A stretch of DNA of 44,263 nucleotides, taken from assembly GCA_903861005.1 (NCBI GenBank), contig CAIOSP010000091.1, forward strand, positions 34,437-78,699, read 5' to 3'. Position numbers and translations under genes: made by a program. Positions 13,555 through 35,208 of this stretch are shown piece after piece; the stretch's first letter is position 1; each line of letters begins with the position of its first letter. This DNA is from an uncultured Pseudomonadota bacterium. GTDB lineage: Bacteria; Myxococcota_A; UBA796; GCA-2862545. The notes beneath the pieces were generated by a model that ran no database searches, was not told where the DNA came from, and worked only from the letters and a program-made list of their open reading frames with translations.

Positions 13555-15402
13555 TCAGTCGACGCTCGCCTCCGCAGGGAGGGGCAGCTTCGCGATCACC
13601 GCGGGGACCATCGCCGCCGTGCGGATCGCCAGATCCGGGGCGGCTACGGACTCCCAACGGTTGGGTCGGCACCACGCGCCCAGCACGAACAGGCCGGTCG
13701 GCTCGCCCTGCGCATTGCACGCGCGGCCCTGGTCGTCGCACAGCACGCCGGTGCGCGCATCGTCCGGGGTGACGAGGCCACGCGCGAGCAGGTTGCGCCA
13801 GAGCGGATCGTCGGTGCGCGTCACATCCGAGAGCTGGCCGGCGCAGTGCACGACACGGTCGAAGGCGAGGGTGAGCTCGTCGCCGCTCGTCCGGCGCAGC
13901 GTCGCCACGCGCTCCTCGCCCGCGACGGCCAGGCCGCGCAGCTCGGCGGACTCGCGACGCAGGCCACCCTCGGCCTCCCACGCCTTCAGCTCGGCGATGT
14001 GGTCGCGGTGGGCGCGGTGGCGGACCATCTCCCACTGTGGGCGGACCTCGGTCAGGAAGACGAGGCGCTCGTCGTGCGGCAGGCGCTCCCAGAGGCGCGT
14101 GGTGTGCGCGCGGATCGCGTCGATCACCGGCTGCCACGGCACGCCGATCGCCTTGTGGCGGGCGACCTCAGCGCGGGCCCAGTCGACCAGTTCGTGCGCG
14201 GTGCGGGGCGCCGTCTCCGGGTCGACGAACGCGAGCGAGCCGGTCCACACGACCTCTGGCAGGTGACGCGCGGGCCAGAGGCCGCGCCGCGACACGGCGA
14301 CGATCGGCCCGGCGTGCTGCTGCGCGCGCAGGGTGCGCAGCACGTCCACGGCGGTCAGCGCCGTCCCCACGACGAGCACCCGATCGGTGGTCGGGATGCG
14401 GTCAAGCGTGCCCGCCACCCAGGGATCGGTGATCACACGAGGATCGGCGTCGGCCAGACCCGGGGGCTTGGTCGACAGGTGACCGGTGGCCAGCACCACC
14501 GCGGACGCGGTCAGACGCTCACCGCTCGCCAGGACCACCTCGGAGGTGGGGCCGGGGAGCACGTCCACCGCGGCGTCGCGCAGGACGCGCACGCGACCGG
14601 GTGCTGAGCGCACCACCTCGGCCAACGTGGCTTGGACGAACTGCCCGAACAGCTTGCGCGACACCAGCTCCCACGGTCGCGCCTCGGGCCTGCGATCACG
14701 CACGAAGTCGTAGAACGCGCGCGGGGTAGACGGGTCGATCGCCATCCCGATCGCTGGGACATTGAGCGTGTGGTCGTCGAACGGGGTCGAGTACGCGACG
14801 CCCAAGCCCAGCGTGTCGCCGCGCTCGACGATCGTGATGCGCAGGTCCTTGCGACCGGTGCGGAGCAGCTGGACCGCTGCCGCGACGCCCGCGAAGCCGC
14901 CGCCGAGGATGACCACGCGGCCGCCCTCGCTGGTGGTGGGCGCGTCCACGGGCAGAGGCGGCGCGTACACGTGGAGCGACAGCAGCCCCACGGGAGACGA
15001 CGGCGCGCCGCCGAGCTGGTGCGTGTCGGTGCTGACCGCCTTGCCGATGTCGCCCGGGCCCAGCCGCGTTGTGGCGCCGCTGACGCGCACCTCGATCGCG
15101 TCGCCTTGGAGCACACGGAACGCGCAGGCGGACACGCCGTGGCCGTGCAGCGCGCTCGACTGGCCGGGGCGCCAGCACAGCAGCCGCACCTCAAACCGAG
15201 GGTCTTTGTAGATGAGCGCGCGCACGTAGCGGTCGGTGTCCCAGCCGACCCATGGCGCGACGTCCTCGGCGGTGACGTCGCCCTTGTGGAGCGCGTCGGC
15301 CAGCGCGTCGACGTCCAGGCGCTCGGCGGCGAGAAGCTCGTCGACCACGGTGCGTAGGGACGCGGGCAGCGTGGCGCCCTGTGGGGTGTTCGAGTCGGTC
15401 AT
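13555..15402 (-). CDS. Cysteine-dioxygenase-like cupin fused to FAD/NAD(P)-binding oxidoreductase
   Basis: Two domains in one 615-residue protein. Residues 1 to about 150 are a thiol dioxygenase cupin: LLCWRPGQSSALHGHG carries the first two iron ligands H86 and H88, H128 is the probable third, and SLHVYAPP gives H144 and Y146. Y59-x-R61 matches the substrate-carboxylate Arg of cysteine dioxygenase. C93 lies five residues after H88, where mammalian CDO has the Cys of its Cys-Tyr crosslink. From about 162 a Rossmann fold (VVILGGGFAG) begins an FAD domain with GLGVAYSTPFDDHTLNVPA, typical of the FAD_NAD_binding_3 family. ATG 15402 is chosen for its AGGTGA ribosome site. Likely step: cysteine to cysteine sulfinate by the first domain; the second domain's substrate is unknown. 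Divergent from a sulfur-transporter pair. Confidence 0.85.
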   Translation of the reverse strand: MTDSNTPQGATLPASLRTVVDELLAAERLDVDALADALHKGDVTAEDVAPWVGWDTDRYVRALIYKDPRFEVRLLCWRPGQSSALHGHGVSACAFRVLQGDAIEVRVSGATTRLGPGDIGKAVSTDTHQLGGAPSSPVGLLSLHVYAPPLPVDAPTTSEGGRVVILGGGFAGVAAAVQLLRTGRKDLRITIVERGDTLGLGVAYSTPFDDHTLNVPAIGMAIDPSTPRAFYDFVRDRRPEARPWELVSRKLFGQFVQATLAEVVRSAPGRVRVLRDAAVDVLPGPTSEVVLASGERLTASAVVLATGHLSTKPPGLADADPRVITDPWVAGTLDRIPTTDRVLVVGTALTAVDVLRTLRAQQHAGPIVAVSRRGLWPARHLPEVVWTGSLAFVDPETAPRTAHELVDWARAEVARHKAIGVPWQPVIDAIRAHTTRLWERLPHDERLVFLTEVRPQWEMVRHRAHRDHIAELKAWEAEGGLRRESAELRGLAVAGEERVATLRRTSGDELTLAFDRVVHCAGQLSDVTRTDDPLWRNLLARGLVTPDDARTGVLCDDQGRACNAQGEPTGLFVLGAWCRPNRWESVAAPDLAIRTAAMVPAVIAKLPLPAEASVD

Positions 15403-15851
15403 CTGAGTCACCTGGAGCATGGGCGCCGCCGGCGAGCTGCACGTGGAATATCCAGCGCGTCGCGCCGCAGAGCAGACCCTATGGAGAACTTGGGTGCTCG
15501 GGGGACGACGCGCATGGACGGATTCTCCACGTCGGCATCCCGGGCACCCGGCGTGCCACGCTGGCACTCCCGAAAACCGGACGTTCGCCGGTTGCCGGGC
15601 CCCGCGGGCCTTGGCCGGTCGCGGAGTTTCGCGGAGGTATCACGGGTCGTTCGTGGCGTGCGAGCCCGCAGGACCGCCGCGTCGGCGGATTTGGGTGGGG
15701 CGACGAGATCGTCGGGAGCGCCACGAGCGCCCGCGGTGCGCGCGGCGGGGATCCCGCGAAGGGTCGTGGGATCGCGGGCGTCCTGACCGTAGAACCGACG
15801 CTTTCGTCTGGGCACGGAGACTGCAAAGGCCGCTCGTCGAACGGAGCGACC
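15403..15851. other. 449-bp divergent intergenic region with several short palindromes
   Basis: No convincing gene; open frames here lack coding character and ribosome sites. It holds GTGCCA-CGC-TGGCAC (15553-15567), AACCGG-N7-CCGGTT (15575-15593), GGCCC-CGC-GGGCC (15598-15610) and CGACGA-GA-TCGTCG (15701-15714). These could be operators or RNA hairpins controlling the CDO-FAD gene and the YeeE pair. No regulator gene is adjacent. Confidence 0.5.
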
Positions 15852-16280
15852 ATGGTCGGCGAGCAGTTCTTGGACGAGATCGCGGGCGGAGTCCTCATCG
15901 GGTTGGCGGGGGCCATCCTGCTGTTGGGGCTGTCGCGTGTGGCGGGCGTGAGCGGGATCCTGGGGGGGCTGGTCACGTCGGCGCGCGGCGATCTGGGTTG
16001 GCGGGTGTCGTTCCTGGCAGGTCTCGGCGTGGGGGGGCTCGTGCTGGCCTTGCTCGCTCCGGCTGCCCTCGCCCCCGCCTCCGGGTCGCTGGCCTGGGTC
16101 GCCGCGTCGGGGCTGCTGGTGGGTGTCGGCACGCGCCTGAGCAACGGCTGCACGAGCGGGCACGGCGTGTCGGGCATCAGCCGCCTGTCGCCGCGCAGCT
16201 TGGTCGCCACGCTGGTGTTCATGCAGACGGGCGCGCTCGCCGTAGGCGCGGTCCATCACTGGTTCGGCGGTGGGCAGTGA
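15852..16280 (+). CDS. YeeE/YedE-family transporter, N-terminal half protein
   Basis: Small four-helix membrane protein (142 residues) of the YeeE/YedE (TsuA-like) group, which takes up thiosulfate or related sulfur compounds. The family signature NGCTSGHGVSGISRLSPRS, with its conserved Cys, is present near residue 97. Full-length YeeE has two such halves; here they are separate genes. The downstream half begins inside this gene's stop (GTGA overlap), so the two should be made together. ATG 15852 is chosen as the start of the hydrophobic protein. It is divergent from the CDO-FAD fusion, which supports a role in sulfur metabolism. The exact substrate is not determinable. Confidence 0.88.
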   Translation: MVGEQFLDEIAGGVLIGLAGAILLLGLSRVAGVSGILGGLVTSARGDLGWRVSFLAGLGVGGLVLALLAPAALAPASGSLAWVAASGLLVGVGTRLSNGCTSGHGVSGISRLSPRSLVATLVFMQTGALAVGAVHHWFGGGQ

Positions 16281-16754: not shown

Positions 16755-17171
16755 CTAGCGCTTCGCGCCCGCGGCGATCCAGTCGCGGATCTCCTGGATC
16801 TGCTTGGGCGTGAGCGCGGACGTGGGCGGCATGCGCCCGCCCTCGATGTCGGCCGCGCCCTCAAGCTTGTGCATCAGGTACGAGTTTTCAGGGTCACCCG
16901 GGATCACCAGGACGGCCCCATTCTTTGCGTTCGACGCCGCGTTCACCAGGTTGGCGTAGTCGGCGGCCTTGTTGCCGGTGATGAACGGCGCGCCGCCCGC
17001 GCCGTGGCAGGCCGAGAAGCCGCACGAGGGCCGCAGGATCTTGGAGTCGATCCGATCGAAGGTGGGCGGCGGCGCCACGTCCGTGTCCACGGCGACGTCG
17101 GTGTCGTCGGGGATCACGTCCGAGGCCCCGCACGCGCCCAGCAGCGCGGCGAGGAGGAACGACGGTCGCAT
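16755..17171 (-). CDS. CX4CH cytochrome-c-like lipoprotein (copy B)
   Basis: 138-residue lipoprotein: signal ending LLGAC, a DDTDVAVDTDV linker, then a small domain with SCGFSACHGAGG and a later GGRMPP. In one-heme cytochromes of the planctomycete-type group, Cys-Cys-His binds heme and the Met of MPP is the distal ligand. The motif here has four residues between the cysteines (CX4CH) rather than two; CX4CH heme sites are known in tetraheme cytochrome c3. The C-terminal LTPKQIQEIRDWIAAGAK helix is typical of these domains. The ATG at 17171 has AGGAG five bases upstream. It is last in a four-lipoprotein operon with a copper monooxygenase and is a paralogue of the adjacent gene. Heme binding is inferred. 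Confidence 0.82.
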   Translation of the reverse strand: MRPSFLLAALLGACGASDVIPDDTDVAVDTDVAPPPTFDRIDSKILRPSCGFSACHGAGGAPFITGNKAADYANLVNAASNAKNGAVLVIPGDPENSYLMHKLEGAADIEGGRMPPTSALTPKQIQEIRDWIAAGAKR

Positions 17172-17183
17172 CAACGCTCCTGT

Positions 17184-17597
17184 CTAGGGCTTCGCGCCGT
17201 CCGCGATCCAGTCGCGAATCAGCTGGATCTGTGCGTCGGTCAGCGGGCCGGTGCTCGGCATCGCGTCGCCTGCGATGCCGCTCGCGTCCTCAAGCTTCTT
17301 GACTAGGTACGAGTTGTCCGGGTCGCCCGCGATCACCAGCGTCTCGTCGGGCTTGCCGCTCGACGCCACGCCCACCAGGGCGGCGTAGTCGGCGGCGGCG
17401 TCGCCCGTCAGGCTCAAACCACCGCTGCTCCCGCCACCATGGCAGATCGAGAACGAGCAGGAGGGCTTGATGACCTCCGACTCCACGCGCGCGAAGGTGG
17501 CCGCCGCGACGACGTCGGTGTCGTCCGTGTCGGTCCCGGTGGTGCCACTTGTGTTGCAAGCAGCCGCAAAGGCGGCGGCGAAGAGCAGAGAGCGCAT
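17184..17597 (-). CDS. CX4CH cytochrome-c-like lipoprotein (copy A)
   Basis: 137-residue lipoprotein similar to the next gene downstream. Signal ends AAAC, followed by TDTDDTDVV, then SCSFSICHGGGSS (CX4CH), PDNSYLVKKLE, GDAMPST with a possible Met ligand, and the helix LTDAQIQLIRDWIADGAK. The two copies share domain order and the same unusual heme motif, so they arose by duplication, and the CX4CH spacing is under selection rather than an error. The ATG at 17597 follows an AGGAG site. Twelve bases separate its stop from the next start. Likely role: electron carrier on the periplasmic or outer surface, possibly for the copper monooxygenase encoded just upstream. Confidence 0.82.
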   Translation of the reverse strand: MRSLLFAAAFAAACNTSGTTGTDTDDTDVVAAATFARVESEVIKPSCSFSICHGGGSSGGLSLTGDAAADYAALVGVASSGKPDETLVIAGDPDNSYLVKKLEDASGIAGDAMPSTGPLTDAQIQLIRDWIADGAKP

Positions 17598-17609
17598 CAA
17601 ATCTCCTGA

Positions 17610-18599
17610 CTAGAAGGGGGTCGCGTTGCCGTCGTCACAGATGAATGGGACCTTGCGGCCGAGCATCATGCCGAACGTCGCGCACATCTCCTTCGGGAAT
17701 CCGAAGGCCTCGCCGGTGTCGTTGTTCCACTCGCACCTGGTGCTGAACGTGTCGCCAGCCTTCACGTGGAGCGGCTCTGCGGTGTAGTCCGTGTAGACCG
17801 GCGCATCGCGCATGTAGGGATCCCACACCGGGATGCTGTAGATCTGCTCGGTGTCCGAGCCATCGACGTGCTGCCAGTCGATTGAGTAGGACTTGCCCCA
17901 CTCGTGCATGTGGCCGCCGACGAAGAGCAGGTTGGAGTCCTCGTCCCAGGTGCACTTCACCTCAAGGGAGTGGATGCCAGTCGGGATGGAGAACTCCGAC
18001 ACGGTGTCGACGAACGGGGCGGCCCAGTCGACGACGCTGTCGTAAGGCATCGCCTCCAGCTGCAGCTCGTCCTGCACGACGATGTCGTCGGCGCTGGTGT
18101 TCAGGTAGTGCGACTGGAACACGAGGCGCTGGCCCTTGGTGATCTCGGTGGCGACGCCCGCCGGGAGCTCCAGCAGACCGGGGGTGTTGCCGTTGCCGAT
18201 CACGCCGCCGATCAGAAGCGGGACGAAGTTGTCCATGCCAGGCGCGTCGGCGGCGGTGCAGTCGATCGTGGTGCCGTCCGGGATCTCGCGGGCGGTGGTG
18301 GTGGTGCCGGCGATGATGAAGTGGTGCCCGAACTTGGACTGGTAGGTGACTTCACGGTGGATCGCCGTGTCGTCGCCGGTCCACGTCGTGTAGTAGCAGA
18401 ACTGCTTCTCGCTCGCGGCCGGGACCCGGTACACGCCGGACTGGAAGATGATCGGATCCGCCCAGGGCGCATCCGGGAAGTCCTTGCGCATGTCGGTGGC
18501 GCCGGCGAGCGCGTCGGTGTCGTCCGTGTCGCTGCTGCTGCCGTCGCTGTTGGTGCACGCCGTCGCCGCCAGGGCGAGCAGGAGGAGGCTGATACGCAT
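17610..18599 (-). CDS. PHM/DBH-like type II copper monooxygenase, lipoprotein
   Basis: Ascorbate-type dicopper monooxygenase fold, normally known from animal peptidylglycine and dopamine hydroxylases. All six copper ligands can be assigned: H92-H93 in FGHHFIIAG and H164 in FQSHYLNTS (CuH site), H230 and H232 in GGHMHEWGKS, and M305 in PKEMCATFGMM (CuM site). Paired cysteines near the C-terminus (C289 and C306) fit the disulfides of the C-terminal domain. The protein is a 329-residue lipoprotein (LAATAC, C15) with an SDTDDTDA linker. It would hydroxylate a C-H bond using O2 and an electron donor outside the cytoplasm; substrate unknown. It is flanked by lipoproteins, two with cytochrome-like motifs, on one compact operon. 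Confidence is high for the fold, low for substrate. Confidence 0.88.
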   Translation of the reverse strand: MRISLLLLALAATACTNSDGSSSDTDDTDALAGATDMRKDFPDAPWADPIIFQSGVYRVPAASEKQFCYYTTWTGDDTAIHREVTYQSKFGHHFIIAGTTTTAREIPDGTTIDCTAADAPGMDNFVPLLIGGVIGNGNTPGLLELPAGVATEITKGQRLVFQSHYLNTSADDIVVQDELQLEAMPYDSVVDWAAPFVDTVSEFSIPTGIHSLEVKCTWDEDSNLLFVGGHMHEWGKSYSIDWQHVDGSDTEQIYSIPVWDPYMRDAPVYTDYTAEPLHVKAGDTFSTRCEWNNDTGEAFGFPKEMCATFGMMLGRKVPFICDDGNATPF

Positions 18600-18626
18600 G
18601 GTTTGCTCCGTGGGTCCGGCGGGTGC

Positions 18627-19163
18627 CTAGCGGCCCTTGGGGTAAAGCAGGTTGAACTCGATCACGGCTTCCACGTCCTGGTCTTCCAGGACCAGGAACT
18701 CGTTGTTGGCGGGGAAAGTGACGGGGTCACCCTCTTCCGGAGACGTGGTGTCCGCTCCGTTGCCGTCCGAGTCCATGAAGCCAGCGGCGCGGTAATACCC
18801 GATCGGCAGCGCTTCCGTCGTGAAAAGCACCTCGCTCGTGGTCTGCGTGGTGCCGTCCGGCGTGATGTCCACCAAAGCCGCTTCGTACGACAGCACGGCG
18901 GGGAGATCGTTGCCGCTCTCGTCCTTCTTGGGGCCGAGGTTGTCGATGTCGTCGGCGTTGTAGATGTCGCCCCACACGTGGCCTACCGGCGGCTCGGCCA
19001 TGACGTCGGCCAGGTCCGGGTCGATCGTGAAGCGCAGCAGCAGGCGGCCCGTGCCGCTGCCCGCGACGTCGGTGTCGGCGGCGACGTCGGTGTCGTCCTT
19101 GGACGAGGAGCCGCCGCTGCACGCGGTGGCGGCGAGGAGGCAGGCGATGAGCAGGCGGTGCAT
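18627..19163 (-). CDS. Predicted lipoprotein, first gene of the copper-monooxygenase operon
   Basis: 178-residue lipoprotein with signal MHRLLIACLLAATAC, then KDDTDVAADTDV. The mature domain has alternating strands: GRLLLRFTIDPDLADVM, SYEAALVDITPDGT, EVLFTTEALPIGYYRAAGFMD, and a C-terminal VEAVIEFNLLYP. It contains acidic turns (DSDGNGADTTSPEEGD) that may bind calcium. The overall pattern resembles a beta-sandwich, but I do not recognise a family. ATG 19163 is chosen because the longer frame upstream is not hydrophobic. It lies 27 bp before the monooxygenase and leads the operon. Function unknown; an accessory or substrate-binding role is only a guess from context. Confidence 0.7.
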   Translation of the reverse strand: MHRLLIACLLAATACSGGSSSKDDTDVAADTDVAGSGTGRLLLRFTIDPDLADVMAEPPVGHVWGDIYNADDIDNLGPKKDESGNDLPAVLSYEAALVDITPDGTTQTTSEVLFTTEALPIGYYRAAGFMDSDGNGADTTSPEEGDPVTFPANNEFLVLEDQDVEAVIEFNLLYPKGR

Positions 19164-19194
19164 GGGGGTGTCCTGTTTGAGGCGCGGAGTGTAC

Positions 19195-19797
19195 ATGGGC
19201 ACGGCGTCCCCGGAGTGTGCCTTGCTTTGGTTTGACCGACGCTTGATAGCCGCCGCGATCGGCGTCGCGGCCCTGACCGCGGGCTGCAACGGCGTCGGCG
19301 CCGACTCCGGCCCGCACACGCGGCTCGTGCCGCCTGACGGCTGGATCCGCCTGCAAGGGGCCGAGGATCCGTTCACGGGCGAAGGGGGCGCGGACGGTGT
19401 GTGCCCGGACACCGCGTTTGGAAGCGAGGAATTTGGCGGCTTCATCGTGTTCGGCGTGCGCACGGACGGGTGCTCGCGCATCACCGTCGCGCACCCGTCG
19501 CTCGCGGAAATTCCGCGAGGGGCGCCGGTCGGCGTGCGCATCTGGCATGACCCACTCTACGCGGACGTGCCCTCCGAGGCCGTGCTCGCGCTGGCGATCG
19601 ACGGGAACGAGGTGTGGCGTGGGACGGCGCCCATCCCAAGCCTGGGCTCGATCATGACCGGCGACTGGACCGCCGACCGCGACATCCCGGCGGGCGCGCA
19701 GGTCGCCTGGCACGTTCACAACCACGGCAAGAACTCGTACCACCTGATCAATCTGGCCATCTGGCCTGACGCCGACACCGACACCGACGCGCCCTGA
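19195..19797 (+). CDS. Predicted lipoprotein with His-rich C-terminus
   Basis: 200-residue lipoprotein divergent from the copper-monooxygenase operon, only about 30 bp away, so the two share a promoter region. The signal contains FDRRLIAAAIGVAALTAGC. The mature part is strand-rich (FGGFIVFGVRTDGC, GVRIWHDPLYADV, AVLALAIDGNEVWRG) and ends with WHVHNHGKNSYHLINLAIW followed by DADTDTDA. The HxHxH cluster and nearby His could bind a metal such as copper. No known family recognised. The start could instead be a TTG about ten codons downstream; ATG 19195 is used. Confidence 0.65.
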   Translation: MGTASPECALLWFDRRLIAAAIGVAALTAGCNGVGADSGPHTRLVPPDGWIRLQGAEDPFTGEGGADGVCPDTAFGSEEFGGFIVFGVRTDGCSRITVAHPSLAEIPRGAPVGVRIWHDPLYADVPSEAVLALAIDGNEVWRGTAPIPSLGSIMTGDWTADRDIPAGAQVAWHVHNHGKNSYHLINLAIWPDADTDTDAP

Positions 19798-19800
19798 GCG

Positions 19801-20949
19801 TCAGCGGCGCCGCAGGTCCAACGCGGCGGTGTGCACGGCGGGTCGCAGCGCGCGGATCCCGGCGACGTTCTCGCGACCGTGCGCGGTGCGGTTGGTGACG
19901 AGCGCGACGACGAGCGCGTCGTCCAGGTCGATCCACAGGCTGGACCCGGTGAAGCCCAGGTGACCGATCGCGCCGCGCGGGCCGCGCCCGAACTGCTCTC
20001 CCACCGACGAACCGGCGGCGGACGGGCGGTCGAAGCCCAGCGAGCGAACCGGCGACACGTCCGGCGCGTCGAGGGCGATCAGCGTGCGCCACACGTCCGC
20101 GTGCGCGAGCTTGCCCGCGCCGTCGATGTCCTGTCGGATCACGTCGCCGAGCGTCGCCAGGTCCGTGGCCGAGCCGAACACGCCGGCGTGCCCAGCCACA
20201 CCGCCCAAGGCCCAGGCGTTGTCGTCGTCCACGTCGCCGCCGAGCGCGCTGTTGACGTGTGGATCGGGGACGAACGCGCCCTGCTGCCCCGGCGCGGGAG
20301 GCCGTGGCCGTGACGCGCCGGTCGGGGCGATCGTCGGATCGGGCGCGTCGGCGCCGACCCGTCGGAAGCGTAGACCCGTTCCCGCCCGGTGGAACACCTC
20401 GCGCAGCACGAAGGCGTCGAGCGGTTCGCCCACCAACGCCGAGATCAGCTCGCCCAGCGCGATGAAGCCGAGGTCGCTGTACGCGCGCACGCCGCGCGGC
20501 CCGGCCGGGGTTGTCCACGCCGCAGCGAGCGTCAGAGTTCGCGCCAGCGCGCGGTCGCCGGGACCGCCCGACCACAGCCCGGCGCAGCGTGGGTCCTGGC
20601 GCGCGGCGTCGAACCACGGCTGCCACGGCACCAGCCCGCCGCGGTGTCCGAGTAGCTCGCGGGCGGTGCGGTCGGGCCAAGCGACCGACGGGAGCATCCG
20701 GCCGATCGGCGCGTCCAGGTCGAGGAGTCCGCGCTGCAAAAGCACGGCGGCGGCGGCGGTGGTGGCCGCCACCTTGGTGACGCTCGCCAGATCAAAGCGC
20801 GTGTGCGTGGACGTAGCGGCGCCCATGGGTGCGACGTGCCCGTGCGCGCTGCTGTGCCGGGCTTGTCCGTCGTGCAGCACGACGACCTGCGCGGCGGGCG
20901 TGGTGCCGTCGGCGGTGGCGCGGTCGAGCAGGGTGTTCAGCGTCGACAT
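19801..20949 (-). CDS. Serine hydrolase, beta-lactamase/penicillin-binding (class C-like) family
   Basis: 382-residue protein of the beta-lactamase fold. Catalytic SVTK is at residues 56-59, YSD at 157-159 replaces the usual YxN, and a GFTGSSLW block near residue 330 occupies the position of the third (KTG/HTG) motif. HRGGL near residue 103 and the GGVAGHAGVFGSATDLA segment are typical of esterase or D-aminopeptidase members. No signal peptide, so it is predicted cytoplasmic. The ATG overlaps the stop of the upstream EF-hand gene (TGATG), giving translational coupling. Substrate unknown; cell-wall peptide or small-ester hydrolysis are both possible. Confidence 0.87.
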   Translation of the reverse strand: MSTLNTLLDRATADGTTPAAQVVVLHDGQARHSSAHGHVAPMGAATSTHTRFDLASVTKVAATTAAAAVLLQRGLLDLDAPIGRMLPSVAWPDRTARELLGHRGGLVPWQPWFDAARQDPRCAGLWSGGPGDRALARTLTLAAAWTTPAGPRGVRAYSDLGFIALGELISALVGEPLDAFVLREVFHRAGTGLRFRRVGADAPDPTIAPTGASRPRPPAPGQQGAFVPDPHVNSALGGDVDDDNAWALGGVAGHAGVFGSATDLATLGDVIRQDIDGAGKLAHADVWRTLIALDAPDVSPVRSLGFDRPSAAGSSVGEQFGRGPRGAIGHLGFTGSSLWIDLDDALVVALVTNRTAHGRENVAGIRALRPAVHTAALDLRRR

Positions 20950-21395
20950 CACCGCCGCATCGCGCGCCGGAATTCCGCGAGGCTCAGGCGACCATCGCCG
21001 TCGCCGTCGGCGGCCTGCACCATCTTCTCGGCCTCCACCCTGGGCAGGCCGGGCTGGGCGCGCATCAGCTCCGGCGCCGTGAGGTAGCCGTCGCGGTCCC
21101 AGTCGAGCACCGCGAACGCTTCGGCCTCGTCAGCCTCTTCGTCCAGACCGGTGGGGAGCGGCTCCAGCAGGCGGACGAACTCGGGGAAGTCGACCAGGCC
21201 GTCGTGATCCGCGTCCACCGACGCGATCAGCTTGGCGGCCTCGTCGTAGCCGACGTTCTGGCCAAGCTCGCCCAAACCCACGCGCAGCTCCTCGGCGCCG
21301 ATCCGGCCATCGCGGTCGGTGTCCATGAAGTCGAACGCCGCGCGCAGCTCAGCCACCCCTTGGGCTGCGAGCGCCTCGACTTCGTCCTCGGTCAT
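20949..21395 (-). CDS. Calmodulin-like protein with four EF-hands
   Basis: 148-residue soluble acidic protein, the length of eukaryotic calmodulin. Four complete EF-hand loops lie at about D25-E36, D61-E72, D98-E109 and D130-E141; each has Asp at positions 1, 3 and 5, Gly at 6 and Glu at 12. LGELGQN and VDADHDGLVDFPEF are close to calmodulin's own LGQN and DFPEF segments, and a central linker separates two EF-hand pairs. No signal peptide or membrane helix. The ATG at 21395 follows GAGG; an ATG at 21407 is an alternative. Coupled to the serine hydrolase downstream, suggesting Ca2+-dependent control of it. Transfer from a eukaryote is possible but unproven. Confidence 0.88.
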   Translation of the reverse strand: MTEDEVEALAAQGVAELRAAFDFMDTDRDGRIGAEELRVGLGELGQNVGYDEAAKLIASVDADHDGLVDFPEFVRLLEPLPTGLDEEADEAEAFAVLDWDRDGYLTAPELMRAQPGLPRVEAEKMVQAADGDGDGRLSLAEFRRAMRR

Positions 21396-21531
21396 GGTGG
21401 GCCTCATCCCTGGCTCGAATCATACCCGAAGTTCGGCGCCTGTCTGTCCACATCGCGTCAGCCGGGCGTGAGACCTGTGCGGGTCAAGCCGGAAACAGGC
21501 TACGTGCGCGGCCCCAAAGCGTGAGGGACCT

Positions 21532-32680: not shown

Positions 32681-35011
32681 TCACTCGCCGCCGCCGAACC
32701 ACAGGTAGGTGCGGCCGGCTCGTGCCTCGCCGTGTCCGCCGTCCGCCCAGGGGGCGCTGACCACGAGGTCGTCGTAGCCGTCGAGGTCGACGTCGCCCGC
32801 GCCCGTGGCGTCGAAGCCGAGCCCGCCGCCCGCCAGCTTTCCGCGCAGGTGCGCGCCGGGGACCGCGCCCGCGATGTCCTGCGTCGTGAAGACGCCGGGG
32901 CGCACCGGACCATAGAGGATGTAGGCCGCGCCCACCCCTGAGCCTTCCTGTACCGCACCGATCAACAGGTCGCCCGCGCCGTTGCCGTCGAGGTCGCCGA
33001 CGTAGGTGACCGACACCCCGAATGCCCCGTCCGCGTCCACGCCGTCGATCCGGGTGCCCGCGCGCAGGCCGCCGACGTCGTCGAGCGCGCCGCCTGCCGC
33101 GGCCGAGGTTCCCGGCACGATCCACACACGGCCTGCGTCGCCGCCGCACGGGGTCAAACACGCGGCACCCACCACCAGGTCCGCGCGGCCGTCGCCGGTC
33201 ACGTCGGGCACCAGCGCCACCGGGAGCATGTCCGACTCGACGCCGACCGGCAGCGTCCAGGTCAGGTGGGGGAGCGCGCTCGCGCCATCCAGCGACAGGC
33301 TCGCGACCCGCGGAAGGTTGGGGATCACCGCCACCTCGCGCGCGCCCCCGGTGCCCTCCCACGACATCGCCACGTCGTTCGCGTCGTCGCCGAACGCGTC
33401 CTGGCCGATCGACACGTCTCGGAACAGGCGCGTGCCGTCGTGAAAGCCGGCGACCGTCAGGCTGGTGCTGGTGGGGTTGGCGGCGAACGCGCCCGAGTAC
33501 GAGAAGGTCACGTCGGTGCCGGGGCGCGTGCCCGAGGCTTCGACGGCGGCGACGACGAGCGTGCCGTCGCGGAACTGGTCGGCGACGCTGACGCGCACGC
33601 CCAGCGCGTGGTCCTTCACCACGCCGTCGGACCGCAGCGACACCGCCGACAGGTCGTCCGTGCCCGCGCCGATCGGGGCGGGGACCGCGTACAGGCCGCC
33701 GACCAGATCCTGGCTCTTGGTGCGACCGGGCGCGCCGACCACCACGCCCGCGGGCAGGCCGGGCGCGGCCGCCGAGACGGCGACGTCCAGGCCGACGTTC
33801 TCGGCGACCGCGCCAAACAGGAGCGCGTAGAGATCGCTCGCGGGCCGCGACGTGACGCGCATGTCGGGGGCCGACGCGATCGCCACCGCGCCCGACAGCG
33901 TGGCGGACCCACCCAGCTTGCGACCGGGCGAGCCGATCGCGACGTCGGGTGAGCCGTCGTCGGTCAGGTCGACGCCGCCTGCCACGGCAAACCCAAACAG
34001 CCCGTCGGTCCGGTCGCCGATCCAGACGACGTCGGCGTCGTCGACCGAGCGCTCGCCGCCCAGCCCGCAGGTGCGCGGGGTCGGATCGCAGTCCTGGTCG
34101 ACGCCGTCTCCGCAGCGCTCCGCCACGCCGGGGTGCACGTCCGCGTGGGCGTCGTCGCAGTCCACGCCGCCCGCCAGATCGGCCGCGTAGCCGTCGTGGT
34201 CGACGTCGGTCAGGTCGACGCCGTCGCAGTCGTCGTCCACGCCGTCGTAGGGGACCTCGGGCGCGCCGGGCCAGGTGGTGGCGCGTGCGTCGTCGCAGTC
34301 GTCGGCGATGGACACCGTGCCCGCGGGCGCCGCGCAAGCCCAGGTGGGCGCGCTCAGGTCGCCGTGGCCGTCATCGTCGGCGTCGGCGAACCACATCCGC
34401 GGGAGCAGCGCGGAGGTGTCGTCGCAGTCATCCGGGTGCAGCGCCGCGCCCCCGCAGTCGAGCAAGGCGGGGATGAGCACGTCGGGGTCGCCCAGACCGT
34501 CCTGGTCGGCGTCGGCGTAGCAGGACTCGAACCCGTCGCAGGACGCGTCGACGCCGTCGGCCGCGGCTTCGGGCGCGCCCGGCCACACGTCGGCGCGGGC
34601 GTCATCGCAGTCGTCGTCGCGGTCGGACCAGCCGGCGCCGGGGGCGCAGGCGGAGGCGGTGAGGGAGGGCGTGCCGAAGCCGTCGCCATCCTGGTCGATG
34701 AACCACTCGGCGACCTCGTGCACGGCGGCGTCGCTGTCGTCACAATCGGCGCTGTCGATCGCGGTGTGTGCCGCCGTGCCGCAGCGCGCGATCAGGCTCA
34801 CGGCCACCGTGAGCGCGCCGCCAAAGCCGTCGCCGTCCGCGTCCAGCGGGCAGAGATCGGCGCCGTCGCAGTCCTGGTCGACGCCGTCGCCGATCACCTC
34901 AGACTTGGGTTCGCAGGGGACGGTGTCGTCCGCGCGGCCCTGCCAGGGCGTGGGTGACGCGGTGGATCCGCAAGCCTGGAGCAGGACGAGGAAGAGCAGG
35001 GATGAGCGCAT
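32681..35011 (-). CDS. Large surface lipoprotein with MopE-type and FG-GAP repeats
   Basis: 776 residues. Lipobox LVLLQAC is followed by about six Asp-rich metal-binding repeats (DADGDGFGG...DCDD...VHPG, DGVDQDCDG), the MopE motif. After about residue 330 come FG-GAP/integrin-type propeller units (VDLTDDGSPDVAIGSPG, VPDVTGDGRADLVVGA, DVDLDGYDDLVVSAP). Likely Ca2+-stabilised and surface exposed, an adhesin or binding protein; this domain combination is common in myxobacteria. ATG 35011 has an AAGGAGG site. The DNA repeats here are due to protein repeats. Confidence 0.88.
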   Translation of the reverse strand: MRSSLLFLVLLQACGSTASPTPWQGRADDTVPCEPKSEVIGDGVDQDCDGADLCPLDADGDGFGGALTVAVSLIARCGTAAHTAIDSADCDDSDAAVHEVAEWFIDQDGDGFGTPSLTASACAPGAGWSDRDDDCDDARADVWPGAPEAAADGVDASCDGFESCYADADQDGLGDPDVLIPALLDCGGAALHPDDCDDTSALLPRMWFADADDDGHGDLSAPTWACAAPAGTVSIADDCDDARATTWPGAPEVPYDGVDDDCDGVDLTDVDHDGYAADLAGGVDCDDAHADVHPGVAERCGDGVDQDCDPTPRTCGLGGERSVDDADVVWIGDRTDGLFGFAVAGGVDLTDDGSPDVAIGSPGRKLGGSATLSGAVAIASAPDMRVTSRPASDLYALLFGAVAENVGLDVAVSAAAPGLPAGVVVGAPGRTKSQDLVGGLYAVPAPIGAGTDDLSAVSLRSDGVVKDHALGVRVSVADQFRDGTLVVAAVEASGTRPGTDVTFSYSGAFAANPTSTSLTVAGFHDGTRLFRDVSIGQDAFGDDANDVAMSWEGTGGAREVAVIPNLPRVASLSLDGASALPHLTWTLPVGVESDMLPVALVPDVTGDGRADLVVGAACLTPCGGDAGRVWIVPGTSAAAGGALDDVGGLRAGTRIDGVDADGAFGVSVTYVGDLDGNGAGDLLIGAVQEGSGVGAAYILYGPVRPGVFTTQDIAGAVPGAHLRGKLAGGGLGFDATGAGDVDLDGYDDLVVSAPWADGGHGEARAGRTYLWFGGGE

Positions 35012-35208
35012 GAGACCTCCTTCGCGCCCCCAAGAGGTCGCCAGGAACGCGCTTCTCGACGAGGAAATCTGGAGGCCTTGGTCCACATCCGTGGCGTGCG
35101 GTGTCCTTGTCGTCTTGAGTTTCATACGGGCTGGAACGGAGGCGGGAGAACGATTCCAGGCTTGCTCCGGCCGCCCCACCATGCGACCTTGGAGCGGAGG
35201 ATACACGC

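Follow-up and report, generated by a model that had tools for sequence, protein, structure and literature searches.

Lipoprotein genes at the locus

The window analysed here is a stretch of 44,263 nucleotides from an uncultured Pseudomonadota bacterium (GTDB lineage Bacteria; Myxococcota_A; UBA796; GCA-2862545; assembly GCA_903861005.1, contig CAIOSP010000091.1, positions 34,437 to 78,699 of the forward strand), and at positions 16755-19797 it carries a group of lipoprotein genes centred on a putative dicopper monooxygenase related to peptidylglycine alpha-hydroxylating monooxygenase (PHM) and dopamine beta-hydroxylase (DBH), copper enzymes that process hormones in animals. The genes for a lipoprotein that we call X, for the copper protein and for two cytochrome-like lipoproteins (CytA and CytB) follow one another on the minus strand with gaps of 27, 12 and 12 bp, and in all four an AGGA/GGAG-like ribosome-binding stretch precedes the ATG (Table 1). 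An earlier interpretation made from the letters of this DNA, here the sequence-only reading, had described a compact operon of four lipoprotein genes, and such an operon is present on the minus strand at 16755-19163; its proposed extent to 19797 has to be withdrawn, as that end coordinate belongs to a divergent plus-strand gene, here called Y, which lies outside the operon. No conspicuous sigma-70-type promoter or terminator was seen in the region.

The four operon products share the same N-terminal arrangement, in which a signal peptide leads to a lipobox cysteine and then to a linker that is mostly rich in Asp and Thr. The residues after the lipid-bearing cysteine are N, G, T and S, and in many Gram-negatives these residues direct a lipoprotein to the outer membrane without specifying the membrane face. 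None of the lipoboxes has Asp at position +2, and on this basis an outer-surface location of the lipoproteins may tentatively be proposed.

Table 1. Genes and motifs of the lipoprotein locus, in window coordinates.
Feature	Position	Strand	Remarks
Y gene, divergent lipoprotein with HxHNHGxN motif	19195..19797	+	
X gene	18627..19163	-	178 residues, lipoprotein, lipobox Cys15; first gene of the operon
Copper protein gene (predicted PHM/DBH-type dicopper monooxygenase lipoprotein)	17610..18599	-	329 residues
HH pair H92-H93, predicted CuH ligands of the copper protein	18321..18326	-	
M305, predicted CuM ligand in the invariant EMC triplet of the copper protein	17685..17687	-	
cytA gene, CX4CH c-type cytochrome-like lipoprotein	17184..17597	-	137 residues; axial Met candidate M113
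CX4CH motif CSFSICH of CytA	17439..17459	-	
cytB gene, second CX4CH cytochrome-like lipoprotein	16755..17171	-	138 residues
CX4CH motif CGFSACH of CytB	17004..17024	-	

The copper protein and the neighbouring cytochrome-like proteins

Judged from its sequence, the copper protein is a member of the copper type II monooxygenase (PHM/DBH) family that has kept both of its copper sites. Its membership in PF03712 rests on the family profile, since the window protein alone scores 12.2 bits and thus falls under the Pfam cutoff of 23. The profile of 52 members aligns over the two domains with rat PHM at an E value of 1.6e-18 and with human DBH at 6e-11. Of the 52 sequences, 31 have a PF03712 match at E ≤ 0.01, and none of the NCBIfam models covers the family. 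In the profile alignment the HH pair, the single His, the H-x-H motif and the Met of EMC all fall on the corresponding PHM ligands, of which those of CuM are H242, H244 and M314. The CuH ligands of rat PHM are H107, H108 and H172 (PMC6123673). The six ligands of the window protein (H92, H93, H164, H230, H232 and M305) lie exactly where the sequence-only reading had placed them, and they have not been lost in its relatives: among 379 genomes of Myxococcota, bacteria of water and soil, 144 contain a homologue, and all six residues are invariant in 108-109 of 109 aligned homologues, as are C68, C114, C216, C289, C306, C321, N293 and E304. From the profile match we would predict a double jelly-roll fold in which the two copper sites lie apart. 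At some loci the copper monooxygenase gene is duplicated in tandem (L054, L058, L059, L063 and L133, the last with three copies).

CytA and CytB are tandem copies with 50% identity, and among the loci compared a tandem pair of separate cytochrome genes was seen in the window only. Their sequences relate them to small cytochromes of the c type; the heme motif is lengthened to CX4CH, and a Met is invariant. Across 40 aligned members of the family the lipobox cysteine C14 and C47, C52, H53, S96, M113, P114, W130, G134 and A135 are invariant; the canonical CXXCH is absent, CX4CH being found in all 40 and in every member linked to a copper gene. It had been claimed that both lipoproteins combine CX4CH with MPP, of which the first part stands for both, while MPP is limited to CytB; CytA reads MPS, and the motif that is invariant in the family is MP. 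Two hallmarks of c-type cytochromes are found, namely an axial Met candidate (M113-P114) and a match to cytochrome c profiles, the best solved relative being the diheme protein FoxE (E 4.6e-9), with cytochrome c6 next. In Pfam, 12 of the 40 members match PSCyt1 and 9 match Cytochrome_CBB3. A CLTCH variant of the same domain occurs in a multiheme protein of the window's genome (C174:45-329; L147/L124), and this domain connects the CX4CH form with heme c sites of the usual kind. Cytochrome c maturation is possible in the host, as contig C59 carries Cytochrom_C_asm (CcmF/CcmC-type) and CcmH genes and C146 has another assembly gene. Taken together, heme binding by the CX4CH proteins is strongly suggested. 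The multiheme cytochrome has eight or nine heme-like motifs, with the CLTCH domain first, and one of the canonical PHM paralogues lies about 2.8 kb away from it.

The arrangement is not peculiar to the window. We collected 81 Myxococcota loci as regions around copper-protein matches, picked regardless of their neighbours; one family (f4) is over-represented among them, and they do not represent 81 independent events. A CX4CH cytochrome lies within 1.2 kb of the copper gene in 43 of these loci, and so does X in 43. Both occur as separate genes in 29 loci from 29 different genomes and 7 families, and a thirtieth locus (L093), from an eighth family, has X together with a cytochrome that is fused to the copper enzyme. 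The usual order is X, copper protein and cytochrome on one strand with gaps of mostly 0-80 bases, with other orders in L008, L083 and L093. By chance a cytochrome of this family, which has 102 members in 28 genomes or about 171 Mb (0.6 per Mb), would be expected in such a neighbourhood at about 0.002 per locus. The best family member adjoins a copper gene in 26 of the 28 genomes, by a profile that was itself built from such loci. Co-occurrence across genomes, which the sequence-only reading had named as a check, is thus seen in at least seven Myxococcota families. On a copper-protein tree of 105 rows the cytochrome label changes 11 times and the X label 4 times, and clustering of the neighbours gave no further conserved gene that could be separated from the shared synteny of close relatives. 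A second type of cluster, consisting of the copper protein, a Cys-rich lipoprotein (WCxNPxGVGxPCTKGGGEC) and a CX4CH cytochrome, is present in L009 and L011, and in L098, L103, L110 and others a similar gap of 500-760 bp precedes the cytochrome.

The pairing of cytochrome and copper enzyme is not only conserved but has also become one polypeptide repeatedly. A CX4CH cytochrome and the copper enzyme share a single open frame in L093, L106, L117, L120 and L121, and in L079 it is X that is fused in frame to the C-terminus of the copper protein. The window's genome has five canonical PF03712 paralogues (L001-L005), each with an in-frame N-terminal CXXCH domain. Such a domain is also found in 23 of 29 canonical frames among the phylum's best PF03712 matches, and these CXXCH-fused proteins form a separate branch of the copper-protein tree. 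Whether or not the CX4CH and CXXCH types have one origin, the joining of a heme c unit with a PHM core is common in this phylum. The fused proteins in L106, L117, L120 and L121 have a Cys-rich module after the enzyme.

Neither X nor Y has a meaningful match in Pfam or the PDB. X is rich in strands, with an invariant D131 and a D-x-D-x-N-G loop, and is probably a beta-rich, calcium-stabilised protein; its AlphaFold2 (AF2) model, made from four sequences, shows seven strands and is poor (pLDDT 54). The homologues of Y share invariant C70, C93, H118 and the motif H173-x-H-N-H177-G-x-N180. When Y alone was used to search 141 genomes, 33 places matched, and in 17 of the 31 regions fetched, chosen by Y alone, a PHM-type gene lies within 1 kb of the Y homologue, mostly of the canonical CXXCH-fused kind. 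Each of the 24 genomes that have Y also has PF03712; in a sample of 96 genomes of the phylum, PF03712 was found in 45, here at a stricter threshold. Y is a probable metal-binding accessory protein; it is His-rich and probably binds copper, and it may perhaps have a role in copper loading.

Elsewhere in the window, a single minus-strand frame at 13558-15567 has two domains, one of the cysteine dioxygenase type and one that binds FAD/NAD(P), and adjoins a sulphur-transport gene of the YeeE/YedE type (15852-16280, with a probable second half to 16714). A protein with four EF-hands is encoded at 20949-21407 on the minus strand, for which the nearest NCBIfam model is XopAW (E 2e-22, below the cutoff of the model), and a further minus-strand gene at 32681-35206 has MopE-type putative metal-binding motifs and an FG-GAP repeat.

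A proposed heme donor for the copper enzyme and competing explanations

The product of the cluster is, in our view, probably a dicopper monooxygenase that is coupled to heme and built up from cell-envelope lipoproteins. That the putative heme lipoproteins act as electron donors to the copper enzyme is well supported circumstantially, because the pairing is conserved and the genes have been fused, both at the five CX4CH loci and, in the CXXCH form, in the five paralogues of the same genome and the 23 of 29 frames of the phylum. Animal PHM receives its electrons from ascorbate (PMC6123673). In the bacterial system heme c could take the place of ascorbate and pass single electrons to CuH, while CuM would bind and activate O2 and hydroxylate a substrate that is probably not a peptidylglycine. 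The Asp/Thr-rich linkers would tether donor and enzyme on one membrane and within reach of each other, and X and Y could have an accessory function, either in handling the substrate or in loading copper. The sequence-only reading had spoken of a self-contained surface oxidation system; the term self-contained may go too far, as the cytochrome needs a reductant of its own.

Several observations weigh against this interpretation. Neither X nor a cytochrome lies within 1.2 kb of 25 of the 81 copper genes, so the donor may be unlinked or dispensable, and a genome of the same genus that is 85% complete (G118) has no copper-protein match at an E value of 1e-6, which could mean that the system is patchy within the genus. 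When the CX4CH cytochromes were compared by hhalign with the CXXCH domains of the five paralogues, only the C-terminal helix aligned. The AF2 model of CytA, with input limited to sequences from the window and L006-L012, is only fair (pLDDT 70, with the heme loop below 50), and a Foldseek search with it gave no match under 0.001, many of the weak matches being c-type cytochromes.

The 25 copper genes without such neighbours would fit a cluster whose members are inherited together but do not exchange electrons. It could, for instance, be a regulon for copper or envelope stress, with the copper protein serving to store or sense copper. We regard this as unlikely, as fusion into one polypeptide recurs in different families and all six catalytic ligands are invariant. 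To a similar degree we doubt that the system is a surface metal oxidase, in which the cytochrome would take electrons from Fe(II) or another external donor and the dicopper protein would pass them to O2 with no organic substrate hydroxylated. It is true that FoxE, a putative iron oxidase, is the best solved relative of the cytochrome, and that cytochrome and copper protein are both lipoproteins, but FoxE is diheme and longer, hydroxylation is the known reaction of PHM-type cores, in which CuH and CuM are separate sites, and it is not evident what X and Y would do in iron oxidation.

The low confidence of the CytA model around its motif, together with the departure of that motif from the standard CXXCH, could also mean that the CX4CH lipoproteins are free of heme and that their Cys and His residues form a disulfide or another metal site. 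This we find decidedly improbable in view of the invariant Met-Pro and the C-terminal Trp helix, the homology to FoxE and to cytochrome c families, the homologous domain with CXXCH at the same site and the Ccm genes of the genome. Least probable of all, in our view, is a true peptidylglycine hydroxylase that amidates secreted peptides, even though the family profile is closer to PHM than to DBH. In PHM the peptide carboxylate is anchored by Arg240, Asn316 and Tyr318, whose equivalents here are G228, A307 and F309, in columns that are mixed across the family. It is because these anchoring residues are absent that an amidating PHM is unlikely, and in addition the scanned genes include no recognisable lyase partner.

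Known systems and significance

Among animal enzymes, PHM and DBH are the textbook examples of a dependence on ascorbate. With PHM (PDB 1PHM/1OPM) the window protein shares both copper sites, the EMC triplet and the HH and H-x-H motifs, and it differs in being a bacterial lipoprotein that has a heme protein as its presumed partner in place of ascorbate and no recognised lyase partner. Animal DBH has an extra N-terminal domain as well, DOMON, for which no match was found in the window system; there, the attached or adjacent presumed redox partner is a c-type cytochrome. The catalytic core is the same as that of DBH/MOXD (PDB 4ZEL). FoxE (5MAB) is the closest solved relative of the CX4CH cytochromes, but it is a diheme protein of about 290 residues in the PDB chain, whereas the cytochromes here have one motif per domain, with a spacing of four, and a lipoprotein anchor; neither two heme motifs nor an iron oxidase context is found, the neighbours being the copper monooxygenase and X. 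The canonical Myxococcota PF03712 proteins (L001-L005 and most of L152-L177) likewise combine a heme c domain with a PHM core, there in one chain, and they differ by the standard CXXCH, another cytochrome subtype and their separate branch of the tree.

Lytic polysaccharide monooxygenases (LPMOs) hold a single copper in a histidine brace and have a fold unrelated to that of PHM. Bacterial LPMOs offer a precedent for the proposed electron route, with c-type cytochromes that are proposed or shown to be the reductant feeding an extracellular copper monooxygenase (PMC8981238; Cellvibrio Cbp2D/E, PMC12542752).

The catalytic family is already known, and heme-fused members are present in genomes, but the split arrangement, in which a CX4CH cytochrome goes with X and Y, looks new. 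We found no paper in the literature on bacterial PHM-cytochrome pairs or on the canonical CXXCH-fused PF03712 proteins, and PHM-type proteins have been described as widespread in eukaryotes (PMC8812541). We tentatively suggest, with somewhat less confidence than we place in the heme-coupled monooxygenase itself, that the cluster could represent a previously undescribed class of envelope oxidation system, in which a PHM/DBH-family enzyme is wired to a CX4CH heme c lipoprotein, with X and Y as substrate or copper-loading partners, and which is widespread in Myxococcota in both split and fused forms. If this is true, there would be a bacterial branch of the family with its own heme donor, sometimes in one chain, and thereby a single-protein system in which electron entry into CuH could be watched directly; this would also be relevant to the question of how ascorbate came into use in the animal enzymes. 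The cluster also draws attention to X and Y, two protein families that Pfam does not recognise, and to a new substrate to find.

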